A stretch of DNA of 64,000 bases from Vibrio artabrorum (lineage in GTDB: Bacteria > Pseudomonadota > Gammaproteobacteria > Enterobacterales > Vibrionaceae), in the NCBI RefSeq assembly GCF_024347295.1, contig NZ_AP025458.1:1364001-1428000 (forward strand), written 5' to 3'. A model generated the notes under the pieces. It ran no database searches. It saw only the letters and a program-made list of their open reading frames with translations, and was not told the origin of the DNA. Every line of letters starts with the position of its first letter. Position 1 is the stretch's first letter. A program made the position numbers and the translations under genes. Shown here one piece after another: positions 36,837 to 58,122 of this stretch.

Positions 36837-39416
36837 TTAATCTACGTTTTTCACATCAATGCTTGGTGTGTATTCATGCATTGAGTCAAACTGTAGGTAT
36901 TGATATAGGTCGTTGCTGAGTGACTCTTTAGTAAACTCAAAGTACTCTTCCACGGTTGGGAAGCGGCCCATAATTGATACCACGGTCGCTAACTCTGCCG
37001 ATGCAAGGTATACATTTGCACCTTGACCAAGGCGGTTAGGGAAGTTTCGGGTTGAAGTCGATACTGCGGTGCAGCCAGTTGCAACACGTGCTTGGTTACC
37101 CATGCATAGTGAGCAGCCAGGGATTTCAATCTGTGCCCCTGCGCGAGCATAGCTTGATTTTATACCTTCTTCAGTTAGCTTACGGTCGTCCATTTTGGTT
37201 GGTGGAGCAAGCCATAATTTTGCTTTAGTTCGCTCGCTGGCAAATTTATCTAAGATAGCCGAGCTGGCGCGGAAGTGACCGATATTGGTCATGCACGAGC
37301 CGATAAAGGCTTCATCTACGTCGGTACCCGCAACATCGCTTAGTCGTGCGGCTTTGTCGGGGTCGTTTGGACAACATACTACTGGTTCAGTTATTTCGGC
37401 TAAATCGATTTCAATAACTTCAGCATATTGTGCGTCTGCATCCGCTTGTAGTAGAGATGGTTTTGCTAACCATGCTTGAATGTCTTGTACACGTCCCGCC
37501 AGCGTTTCCGCATGACCATAGCCTTCACGGATCATCCACTCCAGCATTGCCACATTAGATTTCGCGTGAGTGATTACCTTCTCGATGTTTAGCTTGATAG
37601 TACAAGCTGCGGCTGAACGCTCGGCACTGGCATCGGTTAGTTCAAAGGCTTGGTCAACGGTTAGGTGATCCAATCCTTCAATTTCAATGATGCGGCCATT
37701 AAATACGTTTTTCTTGTTTGACGAATCGGTATTGAGTAGGCCAAGTTCAATGGCTTTTAGTGGAATCGAATGCACAAGATCGCGCAGTGTAATACCTGGC
37801 TGCATTTTACCTTTAAAGCGTACTAATACTGATTCAGGCATAGTCAAAGGCATAGTGCCGGTTGCTGCCGCGTAGGCGACAAGACCAGAGCCTGCTGGGA
37901 ACGAAATGCCTACTGGGAATCGAGTATGAGAGTCGCCACCTGTACCAACGGTATCCGGTACTAACATACGGTTTAACCAAGAGTGAATTACACCGTCGCC
38001 CGGACGAAGTGCTACGCCGCGGCGGCTTTCAAAAAACTCCGGCAGGTTTTGGTGTAGTGCGACATCCACAGGTTTTGGATATGCAGCGGTATGACAGAAG
38101 GACTGCATAACTAGCGGTGCAGAGAATGACAGACATGCCAGATCTTTTATCTCATCGCGAGTCATACCACCTGTAGTATCTTGCGAGCCTACCGTTGTGG
38201 TTTTGGGTTCACAGAATTGGTCAGGAAGAACGCCTTCAACACCACATGCTTTCCCTACCATTTTTTGCGCTAGGGTATAGCCATGGTTAGGTGCTGTCGC
38301 TGTTTCATCAAGGAAGATCTCTAATTGAGGTTTACCCAAATATTCACGCGCGGTCTGAGTAAGACGGCGTCCGATAAGGTAAGGAATTCGGCCGCCCGCC
38401 CGAACCTCGTTTAGCAGGCCATACTTAAGGGTGAACTCAGAAATTACCTGATTAGCGGCGTTTTCTATCTTGCCTACATGGGGGTGAATTATGATGGTTT
38501 CACCGTGTTGAATCTTGCTTACGTCACACTGAATCGGTAGTGCGCCAGAGTCTTCTAGGGTTGCGAAGAAAATCGGAGCAATGTTGTTAGCGAGAACTAC
38601 GCCCCCGGTGCGCTTGTTCGGAACAAATGGAATGTCTTCACCGAAGTGCCAGATAAGCGAGTTTGCTGCTGATTTACGGCTAGAACCTGTACCTACAACA
38701 TCACCGACAAAAGCAATCGGTCGTGGTTGGGATTTAGCTTGATTGATTTGTGTAATGCAACCAACTACACCATCTTCATCAGGGTGAATCCCCTTGCGCG
38801 CATTCTTGTACATAGCTTGAGCATGCAATGGGATGTCTGGTCGGGTAAAGGCATCTTGAGCCGGTGACAAGTCATCGGTATTGGTTTCTCCATCAACTCT
38901 AAATACGCTCATTTCGATGGTATCGGCTATCGCTGGACGCGCTTGAAACCATTCTGCCTCAGCCCAAGACTCAATGACTTGTTGTGCCAATATATTGCCC
39001 ATGCTGGCAAGCTTAGCAACCTTGGTAAACTCGTCATAGATCATTACTATGTGCTTAAGCGCCTTAGCAGCAAAGTTTGCGATTGCGTCAAGCTCTAGAG
39101 CTTGAATAAGGTAGCCAACATTGTAACCACCTTGCATGGTGCCGAGCAGTTTTATTGCTTTTTCTGAGGTTAGAAGAGGGCTGTTGCTCTCTCCAGTCGC
39201 GAACTTCCACAGATATTCCGCTTTGACGCGAGCTGCGTCATCAACACCACATGGGGTCATATGGGTAATGAGTTCAAGCAAGTGTTTGTCTTGTTGCTTA
39301 GTATTACCTTGCGCTAAAGCTTGCAAGAAATGTTCAACTTCAGAAACGGTCAAGCTAGGGGCTGCCACTCCAAGCGCTTTACGCTGTGCGATTTTTTCTA
39401 AATATCCTTGATACAT
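36837..39416 (-). CDS. Aconitate hydratase B paralogue linked to the citrate lyase locus
   Basis: The 859-residue AcnB-type enzyme interconverts citrate, cis-aconitate and isocitrate, and the family can also act on 2-methyl-cis-aconitate. It has the AcnB N-terminal HEAT-like part (LLGTMQGGYNVGYLIQALE), the swivel domain and the iron-sulphur core. Cluster Cys residues are seen in GSCMTNIGHFRAS and IPGCSLCMGNQARV. The N-terminal 60 residues differ clearly from the standard Vibrio AcnB I remember, so this is probably a second copy. It follows the IIC-like permease by 30 bp in one operon. The ATG at 39416 behind TTTGAGG was chosen over a TTG at 39428. The context suggests it feeds isocitrate or aconitate into citrate lyase, or the reverse. 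Confidence 0.9.
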   Translation of the reverse strand: MYQGYLEKIAQRKALGVAAPSLTVSEVEHFLQALAQGNTKQQDKHLLELITHMTPCGVDDAARVKAEYLWKFATGESNSPLLTSEKAIKLLGTMQGGYNVGYLIQALELDAIANFAAKALKHIVMIYDEFTKVAKLASMGNILAQQVIESWAEAEWFQARPAIADTIEMSVFRVDGETNTDDLSPAQDAFTRPDIPLHAQAMYKNARKGIHPDEDGVVGCITQINQAKSQPRPIAFVGDVVGTGSSRKSAANSLIWHFGEDIPFVPNKRTGGVVLANNIAPIFFATLEDSGALPIQCDVSKIQHGETIIIHPHVGKIENAANQVISEFTLKYGLLNEVRAGGRIPYLIGRRLTQTAREYLGKPQLEIFLDETATAPNHGYTLAQKMVGKACGVEGVLPDQFCEPKTTTVGSQDTTGGMTRDEIKDLACLSFSAPLVMQSFCHTAAYPKPVDVALHQNLPEFFESRRGVALRPGDGVIHSWLNRMLVPDTVGTGGDSHTRFPVGISFPAGSGLVAYAAATGTMPLTMPESVLVRFKGKMQPGITLRDLVHSIPLKAIELGLLNTDSSNKKNVFNGRIIEIEGLDHLTVDQAFELTDASAERSAAACTIKLNIEKVITHAKSNVAMLEWMIREGYGHAETLAGRVQDIQAWLAKPSLLQADADAQYAEVIEIDLAEITEPVVCCPNDPDKAARLSDVAGTDVDEAFIGSCMTNIGHFRASSAILDKFASERTKAKLWLAPPTKMDDRKLTEEGIKSSYARAGAQIEIPGCSLCMGNQARVATGCTAVSTSTRNFPNRLGQGANVYLASAELATVVSIMGRFPTVEEYFEFTKESLSNDLYQYLQFDSMHEYTPSIDVKNVD

Positions 39417-39446
39417 GGATAACCTCAAATAATATAAAACTGTGGA

Positions 39447-40757
39447 TTAGCTAAATAGCGATAGAACTAGGTGTAGACCTTCACCAAGAATTGAGAAGTC
39501 TGTAGTTGAGTAAGTCGTTGGAGCGGTAACACCTGCATCATGAATAGGCTGGAATACGATGCCAGAGCCGATGATAGAGATGAAACCACATGCCAATGAG
39601 CCCAAGACACAACCGCGTACACCACCGGTAGCGTTACCGATAATGCCTGCACCACCACCACTTGCGAAAGTGAAGAGTAGTGAAGGAACAATCACTGGTA
39701 GACCAAATAGAGGCAAAGAAACCATCGCCACGAATCCTGCCATGGTGCAGCAGATAAAGCCTACAAATACCGCGTTCTTCGAGTATGGGAATAAGCTGTA
39801 GATTTCAACAGCAGGAACCCCATTCTTGATTAGCTTGTCTGAAATCCCTTTAAATGCAGGGATTAACTCTTCAACGAACATATGTACACCTTTGGTTAGC
39901 GTGAATACACCACCTGCGAAGTAACCCGACTGCTTTAGAAGGAAAAGAAATACGTTCTCGTGACCGTGTTTAGCGCTAGCGTTGGCGAGGATCTGTACGT
40001 TGTCAAAACCTGCTACCGCACTCGATATAAGGAAGAACGCTAGCATTACGATGAAGTTTGACGTGTTTTTGTCTGCTAGGAAGCCGATAGCGGTTGGCAT
40101 TGTCATCTGCTCGATATCATTTTCCTTGTTACCAAATTTGTCGCCAAGAAAGCCCGCAAGCATATAGCTGGTTGAGCCAAATTGACCGATTGAGAAGTCA
40201 CCATTGGCACGAAGTGGATCACAATCTTTGATTTTGCGACAGTAGCCAACCAATAGAGATGGACTGATAACACACCATGCCCCGGTAATTACTGCACCGA
40301 TTATCGCAGATTGAGTAATACTAAAGCCGTGTAATATTGAAATAAGCGCAAGACAAGAGACCATAAAGAATACGTGGTGACCGGAAAGTACAACGTATTT
40401 CAATGGGGTAAGGCGTGCAAAAACTAGGTTTAATGCCATTGCACCGATAAGACCAAAGGCGATGGCTGAGCCGAATTCACGACCAAGTTGTACAATCGCT
40501 TCAACGATGATGACTTCGTTGTTTGGTACGATACCTTCCACATGGAAAGCCATCATGAAGATCTTAGAGAACTCTTTTAAAGAAGGAGAGATCATCAATT
40601 TTGCCGCGGCAAATAACAGGATGAAACCGATGAAGGTTTTGGTTACCGAAACGATAGTATCGTTGGCACTTTTCCCCTGAATTAGGCAGCCAACCAGTGT
40701 GAATAAAGATACGAGGATAGAGGCATCTTTAAGTAGTTCAATTATTGTATCGAGCAT
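39447..40757 (-). CDS. UlaA-type PTS IIC-like permease in the citrate locus
   Basis: The 436-residue inner-membrane protein has about 10-11 helices. It matches the ascorbate PTS IIC family (UlaA/SgaT) by eye. Shared segments include KTFIGFILLFAAAKL, YVVLSGHHVFFM, NGDFSIGQFGSTSYMLAGF, TLTKGVHMFVEELIPAFKGISDKLI, and VEIYSLFPYSKNAVFVGF. UlaA moves L-ascorbate with phosphate passed from IIA and IIB. No IIA or IIB gene is present here. The only neighbours are aconitase B and citrate lyase genes, so it may be a carrier for citrate, isocitrate or aconitate that works without phosphorylation. That is inference. A 29-bp element shared with the citC promoter lies 88 bp upstream of the start. Confidence 0.82.
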   Translation of the reverse strand: MLDTIIELLKDASILVSLFTLVGCLIQGKSANDTIVSVTKTFIGFILLFAAAKLMISPSLKEFSKIFMMAFHVEGIVPNNEVIIVEAIVQLGREFGSAIAFGLIGAMALNLVFARLTPLKYVVLSGHHVFFMVSCLALISILHGFSITQSAIIGAVITGAWCVISPSLLVGYCRKIKDCDPLRANGDFSIGQFGSTSYMLAGFLGDKFGNKENDIEQMTMPTAIGFLADKNTSNFIVMLAFFLISSAVAGFDNVQILANASAKHGHENVFLFLLKQSGYFAGGVFTLTKGVHMFVEELIPAFKGISDKLIKNGVPAVEIYSLFPYSKNAVFVGFICCTMAGFVAMVSLPLFGLPVIVPSLLFTFASGGGAGIIGNATGGVRGCVLGSLACGFISIIGSGIVFQPIHDAGVTAPTTYSTTDFSILGEGLHLVLSLFS

Positions 40758-40900: not shown

Positions 40901-40923
40901 AAAAAAAGCCGGCTCTCACCGGC
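40901..40923 (-). terminator. Intrinsic terminator of the citC-D-E-F-X-G-FAH operon
   Basis: On the minus strand GCCGG-TGAGAG-CCGGC is followed by seven T. It lies about 30 bp beyond the FAH-like gene's stop and separates this operon from the IIC-acnB unit. Confidence 0.88.
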
Positions 40924-40954: not shown

Positions 40955-41728
40955 TTAAACGACTTGTTGTGTGTATGAAATGACGAAATCATCATTAACA
41001 AGTGCATTTGATTTAATCTTGTCGCTAATAATATCTACAGATGTTTGTTTGCTATTAATTAGAGCGATAGAGATTTCATCATTTGGTTCGATGAAGTTCG
41101 TTTCGCCCCAAGTGGTATAGTTTGGGGCGCCGCAGAATACGACGATTTCTTCCGGGTAACCGGCAGCTTCAAGTTGAGGAAGGATTTCACGAAGAATACC
41201 TTCTGATTGCTGGTTGTTTACTGTCTCTGTTAGCCAATCGCACATCTCTGTGTAAAAGATTTTTAGCTCAGATGGATCCGCAATTGGGGTGTAATCTAGA
41301 TACTCCCCGTCACGCTTGATGATAGAGATAAGCTTGTACTCAGCGGTGAATTTTTCGAGCTTGCTGATCTGCCACCAGTGTGTTGCTAAGCCTTTAGATG
41401 CCTCTCCCCACGTCTTACGCTCGGCAATCTTCTGTGCGCCTTCAAGCTTACGAATGGTCATGTCGTTACCCACAGTTATAGCGTTTGGTGTGAACTTGGC
41501 AACTTTGTTATCTGCATACTCAACCTCGAATTTTACTACGAATTCTGGCTCAGCTTGGATGTTAGTACCGTGTGGTGGGAAGGCGATTTTCTCACCAGTA
41601 GAAATAGTGCGCTCGGTTAGGCCGTTAACAACAAACACACCATTTGGAAGGTTTGATTCGGCTACTTTTTCAGCACCAGAAAGGTGTCCTGAAAAGTTGC
41701 CAATAATACCTAAGCTAAAACATTTCAT
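40955..41728 (-). CDS. FAH-superfamily-like protein in citrate lyase operon, candidate oxaloacetate decarboxylase
   Basis: The 257-residue soluble protein is usually left as an uncharacterised family (possibly DUF5718, from memory). By eye it aligns with FAHD1-type fumarylacetoacetate hydrolase-fold enzymes. LGIIGNFSGH matches the N-terminal GRNYADH with the catalytic His (His15). QAEPEFVV matches HELELGVV with metal ligands Glu60 and Glu62. TVGNDMTIRK matches the LDMTARD block (Asp89). WGEASKGLA matches the LAKSF lysine (Lys112). CGAPNYT and PNDEISIAL match the C-terminal TGTPKGVG and ENDEIEAGI. FAH-fold proteins include oxaloacetate decarboxylases (FAHD1; Odx of Corynebacterium). Citrate lyase makes oxaloacetate and OadGAB is absent here, so this activity would complete the pathway. 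It is the last gene of the cit operon. A fragment of maleylpyruvate-type hydrolysis is an alternative. Confidence 0.7.
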   Translation of the reverse strand: MKCFSLGIIGNFSGHLSGAEKVAESNLPNGVFVVNGLTERTISTGEKIAFPPHGTNIQAEPEFVVKFEVEYADNKVAKFTPNAITVGNDMTIRKLEGAQKIAERKTWGEASKGLATHWWQISKLEKFTAEYKLISIIKRDGEYLDYTPIADPSELKIFYTEMCDWLTETVNNQQSEGILREILPQLEAAGYPEEIVVFCGAPNYTTWGETNFIEPNDEISIALINSKQTSVDIISDKIKSNALVNDDFVISYTQQVV

Positions 41729-41793: not shown

Positions 41794-42666
41794 TTAGTTG
41801 AAAATACTTTCCATTATAGAAATTAACCAGATTGCAGATAAACAATCGGCACTTCCACCTGGGGATAAGTTTTTTTCTACGAATTTAATATCAAGCTGAT
41901 GCAGTTGATTATTAAGCTGACTAGAATCTAAATTTGATTCTAAAATAATTGTTGCTTGCGCTTTTGCATAATTAAGTCCAGTTAATCCACCTCGCTTAAT
42001 TAGACAGCTATCATCATTAATACTGATGCAGCTCAGCAGTGCCATTTTTAAGGCGTGCTGTTTGGTATGGCCATCTCGTTTGGCTCGTTTATAGGTATTT
42101 AGGCCCTGCATTAAAGTCGGGAAGCCAGCTTCAGCTTCACCTCGAATACCGGTAACACCATGCTGGGTAAACGCCTGCTCACCAGCTGTTTTACTCTTGG
42201 TGTTATTGAGCTCTCCGGTTAGCCCTTTACACATTTTGTGTACTGTGTTTTGTAGGTGTAGCGGAGAAATCTTGATGTCTTGTACTGTCATAAACCCAAG
42301 GGCGGCGCACAATACGCCAAGGATAAATATTGCACCTTTATGGGTGTTCACTTGTTTAGTCGCTTGCAGCATGTGTTGCTCTGCCTGAACGCCAATTGGG
42401 CGCAGGGATGCGAGTAACTGAGTTAAATCATCTCCAGTAAAGGAGAGACCGAGCTGCGCAAACTCCACCATAAAAGGTTTTAATGTCATTGCACTGACAC
42501 GGAAGGTCTCAATATTCATATCACAGTGCGAACCTACAGACAGTGCGGTGACTAGCCCAGGCTTGGGATGCAGATTTGCTTCAACCAATAACGCTTGGCT
42601 TGCCAACTCACCAATAATACTGGCGAGTGGGTGTGAGTTTTGCTTGCGAGGCTGATGGTTATTCAT
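41794..42666 (-). CDS. citG: Triphosphoribosyl-dephospho-CoA synthase
   Basis: The 290-residue CitG makes 2'-(5''-triphosphoribosyl)-3'-dephospho-CoA from ATP and dephospho-CoA, the precursor of the citrate lyase cofactor. Family motifs include LLVEANLHPKPGLVTALSVGSHCDM (about residues 30-55), KGAIFILG (about 108), GVTGIRGEAEAGFPTLM (about 170), and the C-terminal NLSPGGSADCLSAIWLI. It overlaps citX by 4 bp. Confidence 0.93.
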   Translation of the reverse strand: MNNHQPRKQNSHPLASIIGELASQALLVEANLHPKPGLVTALSVGSHCDMNIETFRVSAMTLKPFMVEFAQLGLSFTGDDLTQLLASLRPIGVQAEQHMLQATKQVNTHKGAIFILGVLCAALGFMTVQDIKISPLHLQNTVHKMCKGLTGELNNTKSKTAGEQAFTQHGVTGIRGEAEAGFPTLMQGLNTYKRAKRDGHTKQHALKMALLSCISINDDSCLIKRGGLTGLNYAKAQATIILESNLDSSQLNNQLHQLDIKFVEKNLSPGGSADCLSAIWLISIMESIFN

Positions 42667-43175
42667 TTGAACATCTCCAGCACTGCACTTCGCAGCTGTA
42701 ATGGAGTGTGGGCTTGACTGCGAGCACAGGCCTTAGCTGAGTTGTCACATACGATGCATTTTCTTCGATCAAAGCCAAGTTTGGTGCGAGATAGCGGTTT
42801 GCCATCTTCGGCTATAACATCAATATCCATAAGGCGACCTAACGGCAGTGAATTTTCTAAGTTAACCATAGCCTGCTTAATATCATCACTGCTGTGATGG
42901 TTAAGCCCGACTAAGTAGTGGAAGCCAGCCTTATGGTGGAATTGTTGTTTCTTGATGATGTTTAAGGGAGTGCTGTTACACCAATTATCGATAGCCAAAC
43001 AGCCTTGTAGGAACACTCGTGATGTCGCTTCATTAACCTTCACATTTCCCATCATGTTGACGGTAAAACTGATTAGTTGTGGAGCTTTCAGTTGTTGCCA
43101 AGCACGCTGGATAGCGAAGATGCGATCACGAAATTCCATTATATCTTTGGCGGTAATAGGCACTCCCTCAAACAT
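42663..43175 (-). CDS. citX: Apo-citrate lyase phosphoribosyl-dephospho-CoA transferase
   Basis: The 170-residue CitX attaches the prosthetic group made by CitG to the acyl carrier CitD. Its conserved C-terminal block is GRLMDIDVIAEDGKPLSRTKLG followed by RRKCIVCDNSAKACARSQAH, with the family's Cys/His set. The start shares one base with the citF stop (TAATG) and the stop overlaps citG. The genes are tightly coupled. Confidence 0.93.
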   Translation of the reverse strand: MFEGVPITAKDIMEFRDRIFAIQRAWQQLKAPQLISFTVNMMGNVKVNEATSRVFLQGCLAIDNWCNSTPLNIIKKQQFHHKAGFHYLVGLNHHSSDDIKQAMVNLENSLPLGRLMDIDVIAEDGKPLSRTKLGFDRRKCIVCDNSAKACARSQAHTPLQLRSAVLEMFK

Positions 43176-44599
43176 TATTTTGCTACCTGTTTGATCTGGT
43201 CTAGCAAAGAACCATCACGGTAACGCACATTGGCTACGATTTTATCGGCGTATGCAATCGGTGCAGATGTGCCGACCAGAAGCTCCGCTCGTTGTTGAAG
43301 TTCTTCAATAGCAAAGGTTTGAATCCCTTGTGCTTCAAGGCGAGCTTTGACTTCTTCACGAGCAGGATTAACAGCAACACCGTGGTCAGTAACGAGCACA
43401 TCGATTGATTCACCAGGAGTAACAGTGTTGAGTACGCGTTTAACCAATGTTGGGATGCGACCTCGAACTAGTGGGGCAACCACAACCGTCAATTTTGCAC
43501 CTGCAGCGGCATCACAGTGACCACCTGAAGCTCCGCGAATTACCCCATCAGAACCGGTGATAACATTAACGTTAAAGTCAGTATCGATCTCTAGTGCAGA
43601 TAGGATAACAACGTCAAGCTGGTCAACCGTAGCGCCTTTACTTGAAGGATTCGCGTATTGGTTAGCACTGATTTCAATATGGTTTGGGTTACGACCTAAG
43701 CTGTCTGCGGCGTGAGCATCAAAAGATTGCACATCCATAAGCTTCTTGATTAAACCTTTCTCATGAAGATCGACCATCGTTGCTGTAATGCCACCTAGAC
43801 CAAAAGAGGCGGTGATGTCATTACGCACCATTTTCGATTCAAGGAAGCGAGTTACTGCTAAAGAAGCACCGCCAGACCCGGTTTGGATACTAAATCCATC
43901 TTCAAAGTAACCAGAGTGTTCAATCACATCAGCCGCTTTACGAGCAATAAGCAGTTCTCGCGGGTTAGTCGTCATACGGGTTGCACCACCACCAATCTTC
44001 GATGGGTCACCAACACGCTCTACAACGACTACGCTATCGACTTGGTCTTGGGTAAGCGAAGCTGGTGAGTGCGGGTAATCCATCAGCTGTTCGGTTAATA
44101 CAACAACGTGCTTCGCATATTGGGCATCTACCATGGCATAGCCAAGAGAGCCACAACGAGATTTGCCAACCATAGCGTTTGCATTACCAAAGCTGTCTGC
44201 TGATGGTGTACCAAGGAAAGCCACATCGATGCTTAGTTCACCAGTTTGGACCAAGTGAACACGGCCACCGTGTGAGTGTATTTCAACCGGCGTTTCCATG
44301 ATGCCAGCGCTGATTTCATCAGCAAGTCGACCACGAATACCTGAAGTAAAGATCTTAGAGATAACGCCAGAACGCACATGTTCAACCAAAGGTGCGTGGC
44401 AATCGGTCAATGAGCTTGATGCCAGAGTCAGGTGTTTGAAACCCATGCTCGCTATGGTAGCGAGTACGTCATTGATGAGTACATCACCAGCACGAAATGC
44501 GTGGTGAAAAGAGATAGTATCTCCATCTTTTAGGCCCGATGCTACGATCGCATCTTTGAGATCAGAGCGAAGCTTTCTATTTTGTTTGATAGATTCCAT
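43175..44599 (-). CDS. citF: Citrate lyase alpha subunit (citrate:acetyl-ACP transferase)
   Basis: The 474-residue CitF transfers the acyl carrier from acetate to citrate. Characteristic segments are FHHAFRAGDVLINDVLATIA, SSSLTDCHAPLVEH, IHSHGGRVHLVQTGELSIDVAFLG, NPNHIEISANQYANPSSKGA and GSDGVIRGASGGHCD. It is about 35 residues shorter than the E. coli protein at the N-terminus, where the latter has a non-conserved extension. The core is complete. It lies 2 bp after citE. Confidence 0.95.
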   Translation of the reverse strand: MESIKQNRKLRSDLKDAIVASGLKDGDTISFHHAFRAGDVLINDVLATIASMGFKHLTLASSSLTDCHAPLVEHVRSGVISKIFTSGIRGRLADEISAGIMETPVEIHSHGGRVHLVQTGELSIDVAFLGTPSADSFGNANAMVGKSRCGSLGYAMVDAQYAKHVVVLTEQLMDYPHSPASLTQDQVDSVVVVERVGDPSKIGGGATRMTTNPRELLIARKAADVIEHSGYFEDGFSIQTGSGGASLAVTRFLESKMVRNDITASFGLGGITATMVDLHEKGLIKKLMDVQSFDAHAADSLGRNPNHIEISANQYANPSSKGATVDQLDVVILSALEIDTDFNVNVITGSDGVIRGASGGHCDAAAGAKLTVVVAPLVRGRIPTLVKRVLNTVTPGESIDVLVTDHGVAVNPAREEVKARLEAQGIQTFAIEELQQRAELLVGTSAPIAYADKIVANVRYRDGSLLDQIKQVAK

Positions 44600-44601
44600 G
44601 A

Positions 44602-45477
44602 TTATTCCTCTCTGATACCAGATTTAGCTCGTTCAAGTACTAGGCGAGCTCGTTCGATGATAGGGGCATCGACCATTTTTCCGTTGAGAGATGCCACACC
44701 GAGGCCTTTAGCTTCTGCATCCGCAGCGGCTTGAATTACCGCATTTGCGTGTTTTACTTCAGCTGATGTTGGCGCGTATAGGTTGTGTAAAAGCTCAATC
44801 TGACGCGGGTTAACCAAAGATTTACCATCAAAGCCAAGTTGCTTGATGTGCTCTGCTTCTTTTAGGAATCCTTCGGTGTTGTTAGCATCAGAGTAAACGG
44901 TATCGAAGCACTGAATACCGGCCGCACGAGCTGCTTGTAGGATAGAGCAGCGAGCAAATAGAAGTTCTGTCCCCTCTGGTGTACGGTTGGTTTTGATGTC
45001 GCGAACATAGTCTTCTGCACCAAGGGCGATACCGATTAGGCGTTTTGATGCAAAAGCGATCTCTTTGGCGTTGGTGATCCCCATTGCAGATTCGATAGCA
45101 GCTAGCATCTTAGTCGAACCAACTTCGCGCCCAGATGCTTGTTCTGCTTCTGCAATTGCTTGTTCCATATCGATAACATCTTGTGCGGAATCGGTTTTGG
45201 CTAGGCGAACCACGTCAACACCAGCAGTCACTACTGCGTTTACGTCAGCACGGCCCCATTTTGAGTCCAGCGCGTTGACACGAACTACGGTCTCAATATC
45301 TTGATAAAGAGGATGGCGCAGTGCGTTGAAAAGGATCAGACGAGCGGTATCTTTCTCACGAAGAGAGACGCTGTCTTCAAGGTCAAACATGATGGCATCA
45401 GCATCATAGATAAAGGTGTTGGACACCATGGCTGCATTCGACGAAGGAACGAACAGCATTGAACGACGCATCTTCAT
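44602..45477 (-). CDS. citE: Citrate lyase beta subunit (citryl-ACP lyase)
   Basis: The 291-residue CitE cleaves citryl-ACP to oxaloacetate and acetyl-ACP. It has the [15 protein letters not shown] start, [19 protein letters not shown] (about residues 24-42, with metal/substrate Asp and Glu), [15 protein letters not shown] and [14 protein letters not shown] (about 150-163). The ATG at 45477, on an ATGA overlap with the citD stop, was chosen over an in-frame ATG 15 bp upstream within citD. Confidence 0.95.
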
Positions 45478-45761
45478 ACGATCTTCTCCCATGGTAGGAC
45501 TTGTTGTTTCGCACCGCGAAGGGCCGTCGCTTGTACGCGAGCAGTGATAATACAGTCTAGCGCTCCAGAATCAGTGATACGCCACTGACCGTTGGTCACG
45601 TTAAGTTTGTTCAATTCACCACGAACGTGTTGTTCAATTGCATCTCGAAATTGTATTGCTGAAGAGCTAACCCATAGTGAAAATTCTTCACTTGGTTCAA
45701 CTTCAACAAACAAGTCTGAGCTTTCTAGGGTGCCAGCAACCGCTGACTCACATATTTTCAT
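45474..45761 (-). CDS. citD: Citrate lyase gamma subunit (acyl carrier protein)
   Basis: The 95-residue CitD carries the phosphoribosyl-dephospho-CoA arm. The attachment Ser is at position 14 in [16 protein letters not shown] when the ATG at 45761 is used. That matches the Ser14 known in Klebsiella and supports this start over a longer frame from 45803. The C-terminal segment [19 protein letters not shown] is also conserved. The gene begins 10 bp after the citC stop and overlaps citE. Confidence 0.94.
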
Positions 45762-45771
45762 TTCAGCCTCG

Positions 45772-46773
45772 TTAGATTTGTAGCGCATAGCCACATTTTT
45801 CAATTAGATAATTAATAGTGGTAATAGGGAGAAGGTTGACTATTGAAGACGCGGTTTGGGATAGCTGGCGCCTTGCTGTCGAAGCCGAAATACAGCTTCC
45901 TTCTGTATTTAGTCGTTCAAGCTCGGTGACTTGAATTTGAGGTGGAAGGTTCTGCTTCATTACGCCGTTGTAGTTATTGGTTACGGCGCAGTTTGGTTCA
46001 CTGCCGACGAATCTGTGAGTGATAGCGAGGCTCGGAGCGATATATTTCTTAAATACTTCACAATCTATCTCGGCGTGCAGTTGATTCACCAAGCCACTCT
46101 TTTTCAAAAAGTAAGAGGGGAAAGTACGGCGGCTGATGATGAACTCATTGCCTGCGTGAACTGTGATATTCGAGAGATGTGATGTGCCTTGTTTGACCAT
46201 GGCAAAGCGATCTACAAAAGAGAATTCTTGGTCGTTGTCATTGACGACAAAGATGTGTAGCCAATCGCACTGGCTTGCTGATTGCTCTGCAATATAAGCA
46301 TGTCCTTTGGTGAATGGATTAGCATTAATTACAACCACCCCGATTTTATCGCCAGATACACGCTGTTTCCGTAGATCATCTTGTAGTTGTTGCAGCTTGT
46401 CTGGACGATTGATAAGCAGCACTGAGTTGCGATTTAGTGAGGTCAAAGGGGTAAAGCCCATAGACTCAAAGATGGTTACCTTATCTGGGGTGGTGAAGAT
46501 AGACAGACTCTTACGGCCAAGTTGGTGGGCGGTTAGCAGTATCTCAGTGACCATGCTGCGTGATAGCCCTTCGCCTTTAAATGCCTCTTTAATTGCAAAG
46601 TACTTAACTATGTTGCCGACCAAAGCAACACAGCCTACCAACTCGTTATCTTCGCGATGGGCAGTACAGAAATATTCAGCATCCCCCTCATAACGCAGTC
46701 CTTGCGTATCTAATAGCTCCTTTATGTCATCTAAATTGATGATAGATTGTGCGTTTGTAATTGCTATATTCAT
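45772..46773 (-). CDS. citC: [Citrate (pro-3S)-lyase] ligase
   Basis: The 333-residue CitC acetylates the CitD prosthetic group with acetate and ATP, activating citrate lyase. An N-terminal GNAT-like domain (about residues 1-125) is followed by a nucleotidyltransferase domain with NANPFTKGHAYIAEQ (HxGH-like, about 148-162) and the ISASTARRQL motif near 300. The ATG at 46773 preceded by GAGATGGGG was chosen over a start 36 bp upstream. It is the first gene of the citC-D-E-F-X-G-FAH operon, preceded by an FNR-type box and the shared 29-bp element. Confidence 0.94.
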   Translation of the reverse strand: MNIAITNAQSIINLDDIKELLDTQGLRYEGDAEYFCTAHREDNELVGCVALVGNIVKYFAIKEAFKGEGLSRSMVTEILLTAHQLGRKSLSIFTTPDKVTIFESMGFTPLTSLNRNSVLLINRPDKLQQLQDDLRKQRVSGDKIGVVVINANPFTKGHAYIAEQSASQCDWLHIFVVNDNDQEFSFVDRFAMVKQGTSHLSNITVHAGNEFIISRRTFPSYFLKKSGLVNQLHAEIDCEVFKKYIAPSLAITHRFVGSEPNCAVTNNYNGVMKQNLPPQIQVTELERLNTEGSCISASTARRQLSQTASSIVNLLPITTINYLIEKCGYALQI

Positions 46774-46826
46774 TTGGATACCCCATCTCTTGCGTTCAGT
46801 TTCGCTCAATTAGGGAAAGTAAAAGC

Positions 46827-46885: not shown

Positions 46886-47029
46886 ATACCTGCTTGATTG
46901 TGCTAGCCACTCATCTTGGTAATCTATAGTTCTCTGATGTCGGAAATGTTCATCCTGTGATTTATGCTTAGTTGGCAAAGTGCGAAGAGTTAAGTTTGCA
47001 AAGAGAGTAATTGTTGGAAGGAAGGCGTG

Positions 47030-48616
47030 ATGAAATTTAAAATACGAATTTTAGTGATTCAGTCGTTAGTAGCCGTGTTGATAGCTATTTTTTGTGTGTT
47101 TACGACTTTGGGCGCAATTGACTCCGTTCTGTCTAACGACCGTATGCACGAGTCTCGAAATTTAGCTATGGTGTTAGCGGTAAACTCCGTAGTGGTACAG
47201 GCGACTAAACAAAAAGACACTCGCGCGCTGGACTCGTTTTTTCGGCACGCGACACATATTCAGTCTGACTATGTGGTCATCACCACTGAAGATGGCACTA
47301 GGCTATATCATACCGATCCAGCCAAAGAGATCGGTAAGGTTCAAGGAGAGAGTTTTCAAAGGGTAATGCGTGGTGAGGTTGTGACTCTATACCATACTGG
47401 ACTGTCGGGACTTGGTATAAAGACACGCGCGCCAATTTATGACAATCATGAGATTGTAGGCATGGTGTCAGTCGGGTATTTGGAGAGCCATGTTCATTCT
47501 CTTGCAACTCAATATCTTGTTCAAACAATCATGTTAGCTGTTGTGTTGCTGTTATCTATGCTGCTGTTCTCGTGGATGTTTTCAAATTACGTACAACAGC
47601 AGCTATCCGGTATGACGCCAGCTCAAATAGCGCGCGCATTTCGTCTACGCATTGGTATTTTGAACTCGGTTGCTGAGGGAGTCATTGCGGTCGATACTTC
47701 GGGTAAGATCATGGTTATTAACAAGAGTGCCATAAATATTCTAGGTATAGAAAAACTGAGAGAATCCTTATTTGATAGCCATGTTTCAGAACACTGTTAT
47801 CCGAGTGATCTTTTTATACCACAAGCAGAAGAAGAGGTGAGTGAAACCACAGTTAATATCAACGGGGAAACTCTACTAGCCTCGCGCACCATAATGCGCG
47901 ATGAACAAAAGATTATAGGTTATGTGGTGAGTTTCAGACCACGAAATACGCCTGCTATGCTGCAGCTTATGGTGCGTCAGGTGGCGAAGGAGCGCGATGC
48001 GATGCGGGTGGTGACGCATGAGTATGCGAATAACATGGCGGTAGTGTCAGGTATGTTAGAGATGCAGATGTATGAGCAGGCCCTTAAATTTATTCATAAG
48101 GAAAATAACGTGCTCCAGCAGGATCTTTCGCAGATTACGGGCCATTTTCACCCTATGGTAGCAGCGCTTATTCTGAGCAAAAAACACCGTTCATCCGAGC
48201 TTGGGTATAAACTTACTATTGTTGAAGGTTCAAGCTTACGTTTAAATAACTCGCCTTTAACTGCCGATGAAGTTGCGACTATCCTCGGTAATCTGTTAGA
48301 CAATGCTTATGAAGCGATAGCCAAAACTCATCGTAAAGAGGGAGAGATTGAGTTATTTGTCACTGATGTAGGTAAAGAGATCGTCATTGAGGTATACGAT
48401 AATGGAATAGGCATTAGTGATGATAAAAAAGATAAAATCTTTAGAGACAGATTTACCAGTAAAGAAGAAGATGCCGCTATGCATGGAGTAGGATTGGCGT
48501 TAATCCACGGTTTGGTAACTCGTGCTGGTGGGGATATCGTTGTTGAGGATAATGAGCCAAATGGAACGGTAATTGGTCTGTTTGTCCCGAAACTGGAGAA
48601 TGAAAGTGATAAATAA
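47030..48616 (+). CDS. citA: Citrate-type sensor histidine kinase
   Basis: The 528-residue kinase of the CitA/DpiB/DcuS class has an N-terminal helix, a periplasmic PAS-like sensor (about residues 35-170), a second helix (TIMLAVVLLLSMLLFSWMF), a cytoplasmic PAS (about 210-300), a kinase core with THEYANNMAVVSGML (phospho-His near 329), and ATPase boxes NLLDNAYEAI, YDNGIGISDD and GVGLALIHGLV. It senses an external tri- or dicarboxylate and phosphorylates CitB. It lies divergent from citC. The ATG at 47030 follows GGAAGGAAGG; a GTG at 47027 is possible. Confidence 0.92.
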   Translation: MKFKIRILVIQSLVAVLIAIFCVFTTLGAIDSVLSNDRMHESRNLAMVLAVNSVVVQATKQKDTRALDSFFRHATHIQSDYVVITTEDGTRLYHTDPAKEIGKVQGESFQRVMRGEVVTLYHTGLSGLGIKTRAPIYDNHEIVGMVSVGYLESHVHSLATQYLVQTIMLAVVLLLSMLLFSWMFSNYVQQQLSGMTPAQIARAFRLRIGILNSVAEGVIAVDTSGKIMVINKSAINILGIEKLRESLFDSHVSEHCYPSDLFIPQAEEEVSETTVNINGETLLASRTIMRDEQKIIGYVVSFRPRNTPAMLQLMVRQVAKERDAMRVVTHEYANNMAVVSGMLEMQMYEQALKFIHKENNVLQQDLSQITGHFHPMVAALILSKKHRSSELGYKLTIVEGSSLRLNNSPLTADEVATILGNLLDNAYEAIAKTHRKEGEIELFVTDVGKEIVIEVYDNGIGISDDKKDKIFRDRFTSKEEDAAMHGVGLALIHGLVTRAGGDIVVEDNEPNGTVIGLFVPKLENESDK

Positions 48617-49289
48617 GATAAAGACGCTGGTGGTTGAGGATAAGCTAGAGTTGGCAGAAATGATCGCCGCCTATATAGGGCAGAATCCTTACTATGAGGT
48701 GGTCGGGATAGCATCGACGTTAGCCGATGCTAAGTTTTTGCAAAACACCATGCAACCCCATCTCATTATCTTGGACAACTACCTACCAGATGGCAGTGGC
48801 ATAGAATGGCTGAGACGACTGAGAACCAGCTCAGCTTCTGATGTGGATGTTATCTTGCTGACCGCCACCTCGGATGCGCAGAACGTTACTTCGGGCATTA
48901 GGTTAGGCGCTTTTGACTATTTGATAAAACCGTTAGCCCTTATTTCATTTAATGATGTATTGAATCGTTTCCGAGATTACTATCGGACCATAAATGGTAA
49001 GACGGAGTTAAAGCAGTCTGAAGTGAATCGAGCCTATGGAGTACGCCGCGATAGTAAAGTGGTTGATGAGTTACCTAAGAATATTGACCAATTAACACTG
49101 CAACGCGTGATAGAAGCGTTCGGCTCCGAAACTGAACAGACCTCTGATTCAGTTAGTGGTTTAGTTGGAGTGAGTAAAACAACTGCACGGCGTTATCTTG
49201 AATATGCAGTGAACCTTGGATTTCTTGAAGCGAGTGTCTCTTATGGTAGTGTAGGCAGACCGACACGTATCTATAAAAAAGTCGGTTAG
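48600..49289 (+). CDS. citB: Citrate-type response regulator
   Basis: The 229-residue CitB/DpiA-type regulator has a receiver domain with acidic pocket Glu13/Asp14, phosphoacceptor Asp59 in LIILDNYLPDGSG, and TA/K residues (LLTATSD, LIKPL). The C-terminal DNA-binding region has a helix-turn-helix at VSGLVGVSKTTARRYLEYA (about 190-208). The ATG at 48600 overlaps the citA stop by 17 bp and has a GGAG ribosome site. It probably activates the two operons that share the 29-bp element. Confidence 0.92.
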   Translation: MKVINKIKTLVVEDKLELAEMIAAYIGQNPYYEVVGIASTLADAKFLQNTMQPHLIILDNYLPDGSGIEWLRRLRTSSASDVDVILLTATSDAQNVTSGIRLGAFDYLIKPLALISFNDVLNRFRDYYRTINGKTELKQSEVNRAYGVRRDSKVVDELPKNIDQLTLQRVIEAFGSETEQTSDSVSGLVGVSKTTARRYLEYAVNLGFLEASVSYGSVGRPTRIYKKVG

Positions 49290-51065: not shown

Positions 51066-51135
51066 TTAGTCATGTATGCTGTTTTATTGTTGCTAAATTG
51101 TTAATGTTTTGGGGCGACAATTAGAGGTGAGCTGC

Positions 51136-51861
51136 ATGAATATGAATACTGCGATAAAAGATCTCAGCTTAAGTGCAAACACAAAAACACGTGTGAGCGA
51201 TAAAGAGAACACTAAATCAGAAAACCTCACTGAGTATCTCGTAGAGGCGATTGTTAACGGTGAATTACCACCGGGCAGTAAGATCTCGGAGCCTGAATTG
51301 GCTAAACGCTTTGAAGTCAGTCGAGGCCCATTACGTGAAGCGATAATGCGAGTTGAAGGACTTGGCCTGATCGAACGCATTCCTCATGTTGGCGCGCGAG
51401 TTATTACCTTTTCGGCAGACAAACTACTCGAGTTATACGCAGTGCGAGAGGCATTGGAAGGTATGGCGGCTCGCTTAGCAGCAAGACATATCACACAAGA
51501 AGAGCTTGTCGGGCTTGAAGGGTTATTGTCGACACACTCAAAACACATCGATGAAGTCGAAGGGTCTTCTTACTTTCATCAACATGGGGATTTCGATTTC
51601 CATTACCGCATTATTAAAGCGAGTCGTAACAGTAAACTCATTTCGTTGTTGTGTGACGAGCTTTATCACCTATTACGCATGTATCGCTACCAATCGCCAA
51701 GAGCACAGTCTCGTCCAAAAGAGGCGCTCGATGAACACAAATACATCCTACAGGCGATTCGTAATCGTGATGAAGAGCTAGCAGAAATGCTAATGCGACG
51801 ACACATCTCGGGTAGTCGATTGCTAATAGAACAACAAATTCAATCCAAAGATCTTGAATAA
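51136..51861 (+). CDS. GntR-family (FCD) regulator of the 2-methylcitrate operon
   Basis: The 241-residue protein has a basic, Ser/Thr/Lys-rich lead of about 30 residues. A winged helix (LPPGSKISEPELAKRFEVSRGPLREAI, about 45-71) and an FCD domain with metal-binding DFDFHYRIIKASRN and HISGSRLL segments follow. It takes the place of the sigma54-dependent PrpR of enterobacteria, as in other Vibrio and Shewanella. Two palindromes precede it. The ATG at 51136 (AGAGGTGAG upstream) was chosen over an earlier in-frame start. Confidence 0.88.
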   Translation: MNMNTAIKDLSLSANTKTRVSDKENTKSENLTEYLVEAIVNGELPPGSKISEPELAKRFEVSRGPLREAIMRVEGLGLIERIPHVGARVITFSADKLLELYAVREALEGMAARLAARHITQEELVGLEGLLSTHSKHIDEVEGSSYFHQHGDFDFHYRIIKASRNSKLISLLCDELYHLLRMYRYQSPRAQSRPKEALDEHKYILQAIRNRDEELAEMLMRRHISGSRLLIEQQIQSKDLE

Positions 51862-51957
51862 CGGGCGACTGGTATTTGCTAACGGTTCTTCGCTGGCGAG
51901 AGCTAAACATCAGCAGTCAGAAAGCTTAGAAATTAACAATGAACAGGGAGCGTCATT

Positions 51958-52854
51958 ATGAAGTTATCAGCAGGAGCTAAGTTCCGACAAGCTGTGCAAG
52001 ACAACGACCCATTGCAGATCGTCGGTACGGTGAATCCGTATTGCGCGATGATGGCAAAGAACTTGGGGCATCAGGCGATCTATTTGTCTGGCGGAGGCAT
52101 CGCCAATGCGTCTTACGGTTTGCCTGATTTAGGTATTACGACATTGAACGATGTGTTGGTCGATGTTGAACGTATTACTAACGCATGTGATCTGCCATTG
52201 CTGGTGGATATCGATACGGGTTTTGGTGGCGCATTCAATATTGCACGTACCATTCGATCTATGGAAAAAGCGGGTGCCGCTGCAATTCATATGGAAGACC
52301 AAGTCGCGCAGAAACGCTGTGGTCATCGACCCAATAAAGCGATTGTGAGCCAACAAGAGATGGTCGATAGAGTCAAAGCGGCAACCGATGCGAGAACCGA
52401 TGACAGCTTTGTGATTATGGCGCGTACCGATGCATTGGCGGTTGAAGGCATTGATAGCGCGATTGAGCGAGCGATAGCTTGTGTTCAAGCGGGCGCAGAC
52501 ATGATCTTCCCCGAGGCGATGAATCAACTCGATCAATACGTGAAGTTCTCGGCAGCGCTGAAATCAGCAACGGGTAAGCACGTGCCTATCTTGGCCAACA
52601 TCACCGAATTTGGCCAAACACCACTCTACAACTGTAACGAGTTAGCTCAATCAAGTGTCGACATGGTGCTTTACCCATTGAGTGCATTCCGCGCGATGAA
52701 TAAAGCGGCGGAGAATGTTTACAAGCATTTGTTAATTGAAGGCAATCAAGAAGCTCTATTGGATTCAATGCAAACCCGTAAAGAGCTTTACGAACACCTG
52801 AATTACCACGACTACGAGAACAAGCTTGATCAGTTGTTTTCAAGCGAAGGGTAA
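51958..52854 (+). CDS. prpB: 2-methylisocitrate lyase
   Basis: The 298-residue PrpB cleaves 2-methylisocitrate to pyruvate and succinate. The catalytic loop [10 protein letters not shown] (Cys121) and metal-binding VDIDTGFGG (Asp84/Asp86) are characteristic of the isocitrate lyase/PEP mutase family. [18 protein letters not shown] is the typical N-terminal block. It has a CAGGGAGCG ribosome site. It belongs to the propionate-degrading 2-methylcitrate cycle with prpC, acnD and prpF. Confidence 0.96.
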
Positions 52855-53000
52855 ACCGGTTTCAATTAATCAAAAATCAACTTAATCCAATAACGTGAAA
52901 GGGTTCGTCGCCATATCCAGTATCGATGATAAAGATCATCGGACATATAAACAGGCAGCACCAAAGAGTGCAGGCGACTAACACAGAAAAGGAGTTCACC

Positions 53001-54203
53001 ATGTCTGTATCTTTGAGTGATAAAGCCGCTGTCGAAAAGGCTTCAACAGAAAACCAACAACCAAGTGAAAAACCAGCTAGCGCACCTGCAATCGGTGGTG
53101 CTGGTCTACGTGGCCAGAGTGCGGGAACCACGGCGCTATGTACGGTCGGAAAATCAGGAACCGGTTTAACCTACCGTGGTTATGATATTACCGATCTTGC
53201 TAATCATGCTCAGTTCGAAGAAGTGGCCCACCTGCTACTAAGAGGTCATTTACCCAATGAAAAAGAGCTAGACGATTACAAAACATTGTTGATTGGTCTG
53301 CGCGGCTTACCTCAACCTTTGAAAGCTGCACTAGAGCTTATCCCTGCAGACGCTCATCCAATGGATGTGATGAGAACGGGCTGTTCAATGCTAGGTAATC
53401 TAGATCAAGAGTCTGATTTTTCTGAGCAACTGTCCGCGACCGAACGAATGCTCGCACTTTTCCCTGCGATTATTTGTTACTGGTATCGCTTTAGCCATGA
53501 TGGCGTGCGCATTGACACTGAAGATCAAAGCGAAGCGTGTCTGGGTGGCTACTTCTTGAAAATGCTAACAGACAAAACTCCAAGTGAACTTCATAAGAAG
53601 GTGATGCACTGCTCGCTCACCCTATACGCGGAACATGAGTTTAATGCTTCAACCTTTGCCGCTCGTGTGTGTGCATCAACACTGTCGGATATCCACTCTT
53701 GTGTCACCGCAGCGATTGGTACGTTGAGAGGTCCTTTACATGGTGGTGCGAATGAAGCGGCGATGGAAATGATCCAAGATTGGCAAACCGCTGATGAAGC
53801 AGAAACGAACATCATGCAGATGCTTGCTAACAAAGACAAAATCATGGGCTTCGGTCATGCCATTTATCGTGAAAGCGACCCACGAAATGCGCTCATCAAG
53901 CGTTGGTCAAAAGAGCTAGCTCAAGAGGTGGGAGATAAGCAGTTTTACGCCGTTTCTGAGCGTGTTGAAGCGGTAATGAAGCGCGAGAAGGGACTGTTTT
54001 GTAACGCAGATTTTTTCCACGCGTCGGCTTACCACTTCATGGACATTCCAACCAAGTTGTTTACTCCGATCTTCGTGATGAGCCGCCTGACGGGGTGGGC
54101 TGCACACGTGTTTGAGCAAAGAGAAAACAATCGAATTATTCGTCCAAGTGCAGACTACACCGGGCCAGAGCATCAAGACTGGCTACCAATCCATTTACGT
54201 TAG
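53001..54203 (+). CDS. prpC: 2-methylcitrate synthase
   Basis: The 400-residue citrate-synthase-family enzyme condenses propionyl-CoA with oxaloacetate. Catalytic segments are GPLHGGANEAAMEMI (His near 250), MGFGHAIYRESDPRN (His near 290) and a downstream Asp in CNADFFHASAYHFM. The frame opens at 52926, but the ATG at 53001 behind AAAAGGAGTTCACC is clearly the start. It has a longer, low-complexity Ala/Pro-rich N-terminus (to about residue 35) than E. coli PrpC. Confidence 0.95.
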   Translation: MSVSLSDKAAVEKASTENQQPSEKPASAPAIGGAGLRGQSAGTTALCTVGKSGTGLTYRGYDITDLANHAQFEEVAHLLLRGHLPNEKELDDYKTLLIGLRGLPQPLKAALELIPADAHPMDVMRTGCSMLGNLDQESDFSEQLSATERMLALFPAIICYWYRFSHDGVRIDTEDQSEACLGGYFLKMLTDKTPSELHKKVMHCSLTLYAEHEFNASTFAARVCASTLSDIHSCVTAAIGTLRGPLHGGANEAAMEMIQDWQTADEAETNIMQMLANKDKIMGFGHAIYRESDPRNALIKRWSKELAQEVGDKQFYAVSERVEAVMKREKGLFCNADFFHASAYHFMDIPTKLFTPIFVMSRLTGWAAHVFEQRENNRIIRPSADYTGPEHQDWLPIHLR

Positions 54204-54303
54204 TCCTCTATATCGAGCCGACTTATATCTCGAGGTGACTTTCTCTTCATGTGATAAGGCCTCGAGAACCAACGAATAGAATTTAACAGATAATGGTGGA
54301 TGT

Positions 54304-56940: not shown

Positions 56941-56949
56941 GAGCTAGGT

Positions 56950-58122
56950 ATGAACATCAAACAGATTAAAGTACCTGCTACTTACATGCGGGGCGGAACA
57001 AGCAAAGGTGTCTTTTTCAACCTAAGTGACTTACCTGAAGCTGCGCAAGTCGCCGGAGAAGCACGAGACGCATTACTTCTGCGTGTGATTGGCAGCCCGG
57101 ACCCTTATGGCAAGCAAACTGATGGTATGGGTGGTGCAACATCCAGCACCAGTAAAACTGTTATTGTTTCGAAAAGCAGTAAAACCGATCACGATGTTGA
57201 TTACCTATTCGGCCAAGTAGCAATAGACAAGCCGTTCGTTGATTGGAGCGGTAACTGCGGCAATTTGTCTGCTGCAGTGGGCCCATTTGCTATTCATAGT
57301 GGCCTCGTCGATTCGAATCGCATTCCAGAAAACGGTGTGGTCGAGGTGCGAGTATGGCAAGTGAATATAGAGAAAACCATTATTGTTCATGTGCCTATCG
57401 CTGATGGGGAAGTCCAAGAGTTGGGTGACTTTGAACTCGACGGTGTGACGTTCCCCGCCGCGGAGATCCAAGTTGATTTTCTAGACCCAGCCGATGCGAG
57501 TGGCTCTATGTTTCCGACAGGGAATGTTGTCGATTTTTTAGATGTTCCCGATTTGGGTTGCATCAAAGCGACATACATTAATGCTGGGATACCCACCATT
57601 TTTGTGGATGCTGAATCGGTGGGTTACCAAGGCACCGAACTTCAATCCGATATCAATAGTGATACTAAAGCCTTGGCTCGGTTTGAGTCGATACGAGCCC
57701 ATGGTGCAGTAGTGATGGGACTTATTGATTCACTAGAACAAGCTAAATCACGCCAGCACACTCCTAAGGTGGCCTTTGTAGCTAAGCCTCAAGCGTATCA
57801 AGCTTCCAGTGGAAAAGTGGTTGCTGCCGAAGATACTGACCTTCTGGTGCGTGCTTTGTCGATGGGGCAACTGCATCACGCCATGATGGGGACAGCTGCG
57901 GTCGCCATTGCTTCAGCGGCAAGTGTGGCAGGCACCTTAGTTAACTTGGCAGCCGGTGAGGGAGGTCGTGATTTTGTGACCTTTGGCCATCCTTCGGGAA
58001 CTTTAAAAGTAGGGGCTAAAGCAATCCAAACAGAAACAGGCTGGAAAATTGAGAGGGCGTTTATGAGTCGCAGTGCCCGAGTGATCATGGAAGGTGTTAT
58101 TCGGGTGCCTTTTCCCAAGTAA
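56950..58122 (+). CDS. prpF: 2-methylaconitate cis-trans isomerase
   Basis: The 390-residue PrpF, a diaminopimelate-epimerase-fold protein, isomerises the trans product of AcnD. The N-terminus has VPATYMRGGTSKGVFF with the catalytic Lys of the family. DWSGNCGNLSAAVGPFAI (about 97-114) holds the Cys. The C-terminal FMSRSARVIMEGVIRVP is also typical. It has an AGGAGCTAGGT ribosome site and is the last prp gene in the window. No prpE follows. Confidence 0.95.
   Translation: MNIKQIKVPATYMRGGTSKGVFFNLSDLPEAAQVAGEARDALLLRVIGSPDPYGKQTDGMGGATSSTSKTVIVSKSSKTDHDVDYLFGQVAIDKPFVDWSGNCGNLSAAVGPFAIHSGLVDSNRIPENGVVEVRVWQVNIEKTIIVHVPIADGEVQELGDFELDGVTFPAAEIQVDFLDPADASGSMFPTGNVVDFLDVPDLGCIKATYINAGIPTIFVDAESVGYQGTELQSDINSDTKALARFESIRAHGAVVMGLIDSLEQAKSRQHTPKVAFVAKPQAYQASSGKVVAAEDTDLLVRALSMGQLHHAMMGTAAVAIASAASVAGTLVNLAAGEGGRDFVTFGHPSGTLKVGAKAIQTETGWKIERAFMSRSARVIMEGVIRVPFPK

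Follow-up and report, generated by a model that had tools for sequence, protein, structure and literature searches.

The last gene of the citrate lyase cluster in the window, a stretch of 64,000 nucleotides from Vibrio artabrorum, is a real, conserved and uncharacterised gene, the product of which belongs to the Pfam family DUF5718 (PF18985). Judged from its sequence, this protein may be a divergent oxaloacetate tautomerase of the FAH superfamily that serves oxaloacetate-producing pathways. We hold this assignment tentatively, at somewhat less than an even chance, and it draws on the operon position of the gene, the residues of its product, the kinship with FAH proteins at the level of profiles and the repeated linkage to genes for the production or consumption of oxaloacetate. 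A function as tautomerase would give a family of unknown function a role that can be tested. If true, it would also extend oxaloacetate tautomerisation, which is described in one study as a protection of succinate dehydrogenase in respiration (PMC10825186), to fermentation pathways in which oxaloacetate is formed in bulk.

The gene and its citrate lyase operon

The 257-codon ORF fills positions 41728 to 40955 of the minus strand (Table 1). The earlier note had described a 257-residue frame at this place, with the strand unstated, as the last gene of citC-D-E-F-X-G, and it is borne out on both points. Six cit genes lie upstream on the same strand, every one of them above a curated cut-off of Pfam or NCBIfam, the spacing between citG and the DUF5718 gene is 65 nt, and the latter looks like the last gene of the operon because its stop codon is followed by a terminator-like hairpin. 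The frame is no chance ORF, as Shewanella marina and a further genome of the family have homologues with 65% and 70% identity at the corresponding place of the operon.

Table 1. Features of the citrate lyase cluster and its flanks (positions in the window).
Feature	Position	Strand	Basis
Second aconitase B paralogue	36837..39428	-	Pfam/NCBIfam; TTG start set mechanically
Stand-alone PTS EIIC (UlaA/GAT type), candidate transporter	39447..40757	-	Pfam/NCBIfam
Terminator-like hairpin and run of eight T	40908..40923	-	Consensus match only; about 31 nt past the DUF5718 stop
DUF5718 (PF18985) gene, putative divergent FAH-superfamily protein, 257 aa	40955..41728	-	ORF, Pfam, alignment, hhalign
citG, triphosphoribosyl-dephospho-CoA synthase	41794..42666	-	Pfam/NCBIfam
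citX, holo-ACP synthase	42663..43175	-	Pfam/NCBIfam
citF, citrate lyase alpha	43175..44599	-	Pfam/NCBIfam
citE, citrate lyase beta	44602..45492	-	Pfam/NCBIfam
citD, citrate lyase acyl carrier protein	45474..45803	-	Pfam/NCBIfam; TTG start set mechanically
citC, citrate lyase ligase	45772..46809	-	Pfam/NCBIfam; TTG start set mechanically
CitB/DpiA-like response regulator	48573..49289	+	Pfam/NCBIfam; under the DpiA cut-off

Beside the response regulator, a gene on the plus strand (47027..48616), which putatively encodes a CitA/DpiB-like sensor kinase, was found near the cluster, and relatives of this gene occur in other cit loci. Also nearby lies what is presumably a methylcitrate-type cluster (51109-58122, plus strand) with a GntR-like regulator and PrpB-, PrpC-, AcnD- and PrpF-like proteins.

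Family membership and kinship with FAH proteins

The window protein matches DUF5718, a family for which the Pfam description names no function, over residues 44-255 (E 3.5e-45) with 154.9 bits, far above the cut-off of 25. This was the sole Pfam report up to E 1; the FAA_hydrolase family (PF01557) was not matched, nor was any NCBIfam model. A search of the PDB sequences returned one match at chance level for the protein (E 0.71) and none for the 47-row family profile. In the literature searched, no paper mentions DUF5718, and among the titles found for fumarylacetoacetate hydrolase together with citrate lyase none concerned a bacterial cit operon. Within the family, the window protein belongs to a divergent clade with 26-33% identity to 32 proteins of the main family.

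Residues were compared in an alignment (A1) of 47 DUF5718 proteins, which comprises the window's own protein and 46 of the 52 distinct proteins from the loci; those of L060, L078, L079, L089, L099 and L101 were omitted as near copies or to keep the alignment small, and the 30 short loci L005-L034 are absent from it because a motif filter had missed them. Invariant in all 47 are N11, E60, E62, N88, D89, R93, K105, W107, K112, G200, Y204 and D217. The residues singled out earlier as those of the FAH superfamily (His15, Glu60, Glu62, Asp89, Lys112 and the blocks GAPNYT and NDEI) are all present in the window protein, and the putative metal ligands E60, E62 and D89, the lack of which in homologues would have spoken against the proposal, occur in 47/47. 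The full FAH pattern of Glu-x-Glu and Asp as metal ligands, an Arg at Asp+4 and an active-site Lys is represented by E60, E62, D89, R93 and K112 in the same 47 proteins. His15 is kept in 44 of them and is a Tyr in the remaining three, the GAPNYT block is variable and often reads GATRYT, and of the NDEI block the Asp alone is invariant. The His-x2-Glu pair of the FAHD/YcgM type was not found, as there is no conserved Glu at His+3 among the 47 proteins; in the cit clade, an invariant E20 stands at +5 from the His (15/15).

A comparison by hhalign of DUF5718 with ten YcgM/FAHD1-like FAH proteins, drawn from the window's genome and its relatives, gave a probability of 86.5% and a score of 47.0 over 196 columns, while the controls reached at most 23.3 (200 column-shuffled decoys), 19.4 (reversed profile) and 18.8 (citE profile). 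When only the 15 proteins of the cit clade were compared with the FAH proteins, the score was 38.3, and the best of 100 decoys reached 24.3. The match fell to 44.5% and 89 N-terminal columns when FAHD1 was added and a truncated row was dropped, and the second FAH type (alignment A4, mostly proteins of 345 aa) gave noise (1.8%); the FAH alignments A3 and A4 hold 10 rows each, out of 25 extracted FAH proteins. From the earlier claim of an FAH fold, the kinship at the superfamily level is thus retained, being above the decoys with one set of FAH rows and weaker with others, and the fold itself is putative. These profiles support, weakly to moderately, that DUF5718 is akin to the FAHD1/YcgM-type proteins.

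In the aligned columns, H15, E60, E62, D89, R93 and K112 correspond to H30, E71, E73, D102, R106 and K123 of FAHD1 (residue numbers of the 6fog chain). With FAHD1, FAHD2, YcgM and YisK, DUF5718 has in common the order His, Glu-x-Glu, Asp-x3-Arg, Trp, Lys and C-terminal Asp, as well as a profile similarity which exceeds that of every decoy. It differs from them by the missing match to PF01557, by a longer stretch from the Lys to the C-terminal block and by the lack of a conserved counterpart of FAHD1 Glu33, the Glu at His+3, and of Gln109, the region of which falls on the columns of E96 and G97. A YcgM/FAHD1-like protein (L103) is encoded in the window's genome.

Genomic neighbourhoods and the relation to OadGAB

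DUF5718 is present in 86 of 247 genomes of the family and is rare across the phylum (6/398). A search of the order with the cit-clade profile detected it in 89 of 394 genomes and found, by score, no cit-clade member beyond G062 and the window itself. Shewanella marina was the sole match in a scan of genome contigs, and nothing was found in viral contigs (47-row profile) or plasmids (near mode, 13.2 kb). The survey of the 247 family genomes revealed citF in 30 genomes at 32 loci, and DUF5718 occurs in 25 of these 30 genomes versus 61 of the 217 others (Fisher p 8e-9; the genomes are related, so that the p values of the survey are not those of independent samples).

Stretches of 19.9 kb around 31 citF loci were read in addition to the window, with extra stretches beside three of them; absence of oad from a locus hence denotes absence within the approximately 20 kb read. 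L061 was scored as oad-positive from the adjoining stretch L157, and L096, which is the same place as L068, was left uncounted. The DUF5718 gene was detected in 17 of the 32 loci, and in 16 of them 1.4 to 3.4 kb separate it from citF; the exception is L061, where it adjoins citG yet is 10 kb away from citF, and where the genes between DUF5718 and citC (L061:14648-17742, minus strand) presumably encode a TctABC-like tripartite tricarboxylate transporter. The place at the end of the operon, directly 3' of citG in 16 of the 17 loci (not in L045), would suit a regulator or modifier of citrate lyase itself, for example a protein with citrate lyase deacetylase activity, which is an orphan activity. 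Such a role is extremely improbable in view of the DUF5718 genes that adjoin tartrate and oad genes where the stretch contains no citrate lyase, as well as of the 61 out of 86 DUF5718 genomes without citF. A literature search for the deacetylase gave no title on such a gene, and this function was set aside for want of a lead.

The earlier note had reported OadGAB as absent from the locus and had supposed that the soluble enzyme replaces this Na+-pumping decarboxylase. OadGAB is a biotin-dependent membrane complex, unrelated to the DUF5718 protein, which acts on the product of citrate lyase. Its absence was confirmed for the 64-kb window, in which blastp of the ORFs revealed no oad, but not for the genome, since a complete oadG-oadA-oadB set lies at C1:2.51 Mb (L002). 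Moreover, oadA or oadB was found in 14 of the 17 citF loci with DUF5718 versus 8 of the 15 without it (Fisher p 0.13); the two usually share a locus, and the mutual exclusion that such a survey had been expected to reveal did not appear. What was observed is the frequent pairing with oad inside one cit locus that the earlier note itself had named as evidence against replacement. An OAD beta gene is present in 30/30 citF genomes. At the genome level DUF5718 and OAD beta show no association, with OAD beta in 74 of 86 genomes with DUF5718 versus 135 of 161 without (p 0.71). A cit cluster from another family of the order (L155) likewise combines oadGAB, citAB and a 2HCT transporter with DUF5718. 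On account of the 32-locus survey and of oadGAB in the same genome, replacement of OadGAB was rejected, and nothing calls for DUF5718 as a substitute for the sodium pump.

The same idea may be confined to a small variant of the cit cluster, as the window, L065 and the locus of Shewanella marina (L003) all carry DUF5718, and the stretches read there contain no oad. Even in this form it is very improbable, because the window's genome and G091 both possess an OAD beta gene elsewhere, and because oad is likewise missing from 7 of the 15 loci that lack DUF5718, which means that its absence does not require DUF5718. The three loci form one clade (100/97) and have a stand-alone EIIC. In the window, the EIIC-GAT gene and then the second aconitase B gene follow past the hairpin of the DUF5718 gene, and no EIIA or EIIB was found among the scanned neighbours of the EIIC gene. 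Among the 247 genomes, an EIIC homologue at 87% occurs only in G091 (L065), the next one reaching 41%, and the homologue of Shewanella marina matches at 76-79% in two pieces; close homologues are confined to cit loci where the stretch read contains neither CitS nor oad. No 2HCT transporter was found in the window's own genome, and it is a guess that the EIIC acts as an unusual tricarboxylate transporter. The other AcnB gene of this genome is located at C1:2460769, and the second aconitase B may supply citrate lyase from isocitrate or aconitate.

Outside the cit loci, DUF5718 is encoded divergently from a DASS transporter, both subunits (alpha and beta) of L-tartrate dehydratase and oadGAB in L082 and L098, the dehydratase being identified by equivalogs above cut-off in L082 and by clustering in L098. 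In L090, L150 and L154, which belong to one other family, most probably the Pasteurellaceae, it occurs with a DNA ligase and oadGAB, with four genes between in L154. Eight further loci show a cluster of allantoate amidohydrolase, gamma-glutamyltranspeptidase, class V aminotransferase and amidase; the allantoate amidohydrolase of L085 is an NCBIfam equivalog above cut-off, and for the remaining seven loci the assignment comes from blastp clustering. These eight loci indicate that DUF5718 is not tied to oxaloacetate alone. The proteins could be FAH-fold hydrolases, lyases or isomerases whose substrate is a related 2-oxo or beta-keto acid, and the paralogues in purine-breakdown-like clusters would act on ureido acids. 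This is an unlikely alternative, if one with some weight: DUF5718 diverges from every solved FAH protein, and 48 of the 53 non-cit loci are without oad in the fetched stretch (5/53 have it), whereas oxaloacetate is the one obvious metabolite common to citrate and tartrate loci, and the cit-locus proteins stem from two parts of the tree. In this tree of 72 proteins, they are placed in a clade of 16 (14 of them in cit loci), while five others fall separately inside the main clade. The starred branches force at least five changes of the cit-locus label, and finer placements are unsure because of long branches.

Possible role in oxaloacetate metabolism

Oxaloacetate is common to citrate lyase, tartrate dehydratase and OadGAB, and is thus a plausible metabolite of the DUF5718 protein. 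The earlier note had relied on FAH-fold enzymes as oxaloacetate decarboxylases, of which oxaloacetate itself can be kept, while the published FAHD enzymes appear mainly as tautomerases. According to Zmuda et al. 2024, ten FAHD enzymes, including YcgM and YisK, are oxaloacetate tautomerases, they decarboxylate more weakly than they tautomerise by a mean factor of about 2x10^4, and less than 0.1% of the tautomerase activity is left in a D102A R106A double mutant of FAHD1 (PMC10825186). A 2024 review regards decarboxylation by FAHD1 as more than a side activity, with K123 as the base and Q109 supporting the geometry for decarboxylation (PMC12176266). In DUF5718, the equivalents of D102 and R106 (Asp89 and Arg93) are invariant and that of K123 is kept, whereas Q109 is missing. 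These residues favour a tautomerase, as does the proximity of the gene to those for citrate lyase, tartrate dehydratase and OadGAB.

A soluble, metal-dependent oxaloacetate decarboxylase which works beside OadGAB would be another possibility, and a rather unlikely one. CitM, a soluble oxaloacetate decarboxylase of lactic acid bacteria, is of the malic-enzyme type and not an FAH protein. It resembles the DUF5718 protein in being a soluble enzyme encoded in a cit operon, and the cit locus of Enterococcus faecalis contains oadHDB and oadA plus citM (PMC3198936), so that the presence of oad in a locus does not speak against a decarboxylase. In FAHD1, the corresponding metal-binding and lysine residues also serve decarboxylation (PMC12176266). 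Against this stand the low decarboxylation of the ten FAHD enzymes (PMC10825186) and the unconserved Gln109.

As a tautomerase, the DUF5718 protein would interconvert the enol and keto forms of oxaloacetate. We infer its fold, metal binding, substrate and reaction: Glu60, Glu62 and Asp89 would form an Mg2+ site where oxaloacetate binds, and Arg93, Lys112 and probably His15 would surround the substrate. Citrate lyase floods the cytoplasm with oxaloacetate; a tautomerase would maintain this in its keto form, which is used by the decarboxylase and malate dehydrogenase, and would prevent poisoning of succinate dehydrogenase or fumarate reductase by enol-oxaloacetate. From its chemistry, dehydration of tartrate should give the enol form directly. 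Citrate lyase releases keto-oxaloacetate directly, so that a tautomerase seems less clearly required here than for tartrate. In addition, the YcgM/FAHD1-like protein of the genome would make a second tautomerase partly redundant; the DUF5718 protein would then be a second tautomerase that is dedicated to the pathway. The missing genome-level association of DUF5718 with OAD beta and the lack of oad in the fetched stretch of 48 of the 53 non-cit loci also speak against the assignment.

A wider and more speculative proposal, which we consider possible but doubtful, is that DUF5718 arose separately as a second family of oxaloacetate tautomerases, dedicated to citrate and tartrate fermentation, a case of pathway-specific metabolite repair. 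Citrate lyase loci would have acquired it on two or more occasions and a tartrate dehydratase locus would have done so too, in addition to the YcgM-type enzyme of general use, and the cluster of the window would be a variant in which a stand-alone PTS-type EIIC and a second aconitase replace CitS and OadGAB.

Two further observations were made in the cit and oad loci. A second CitX paralogue is encoded on the opposite strand beside citC, oadG or citA (L054:820-1347, minus strand, Pfam CitX), with matching places in L046, L050, L053, L057, L059-L061, L063 and L064, and the tartrate locus L098 contains a CitX paralogue beside oadB, near the end of the stretch (L098:15296-15844). Furthermore, a family of Cys-rich proteins of about 91 aa, often adjoining DUF5718 or oad, was detected in 15 cit or oad loci and in L148, for example at L148:7393-7668 (no Pfam match), L054:12860-13135 and L082:273-566.
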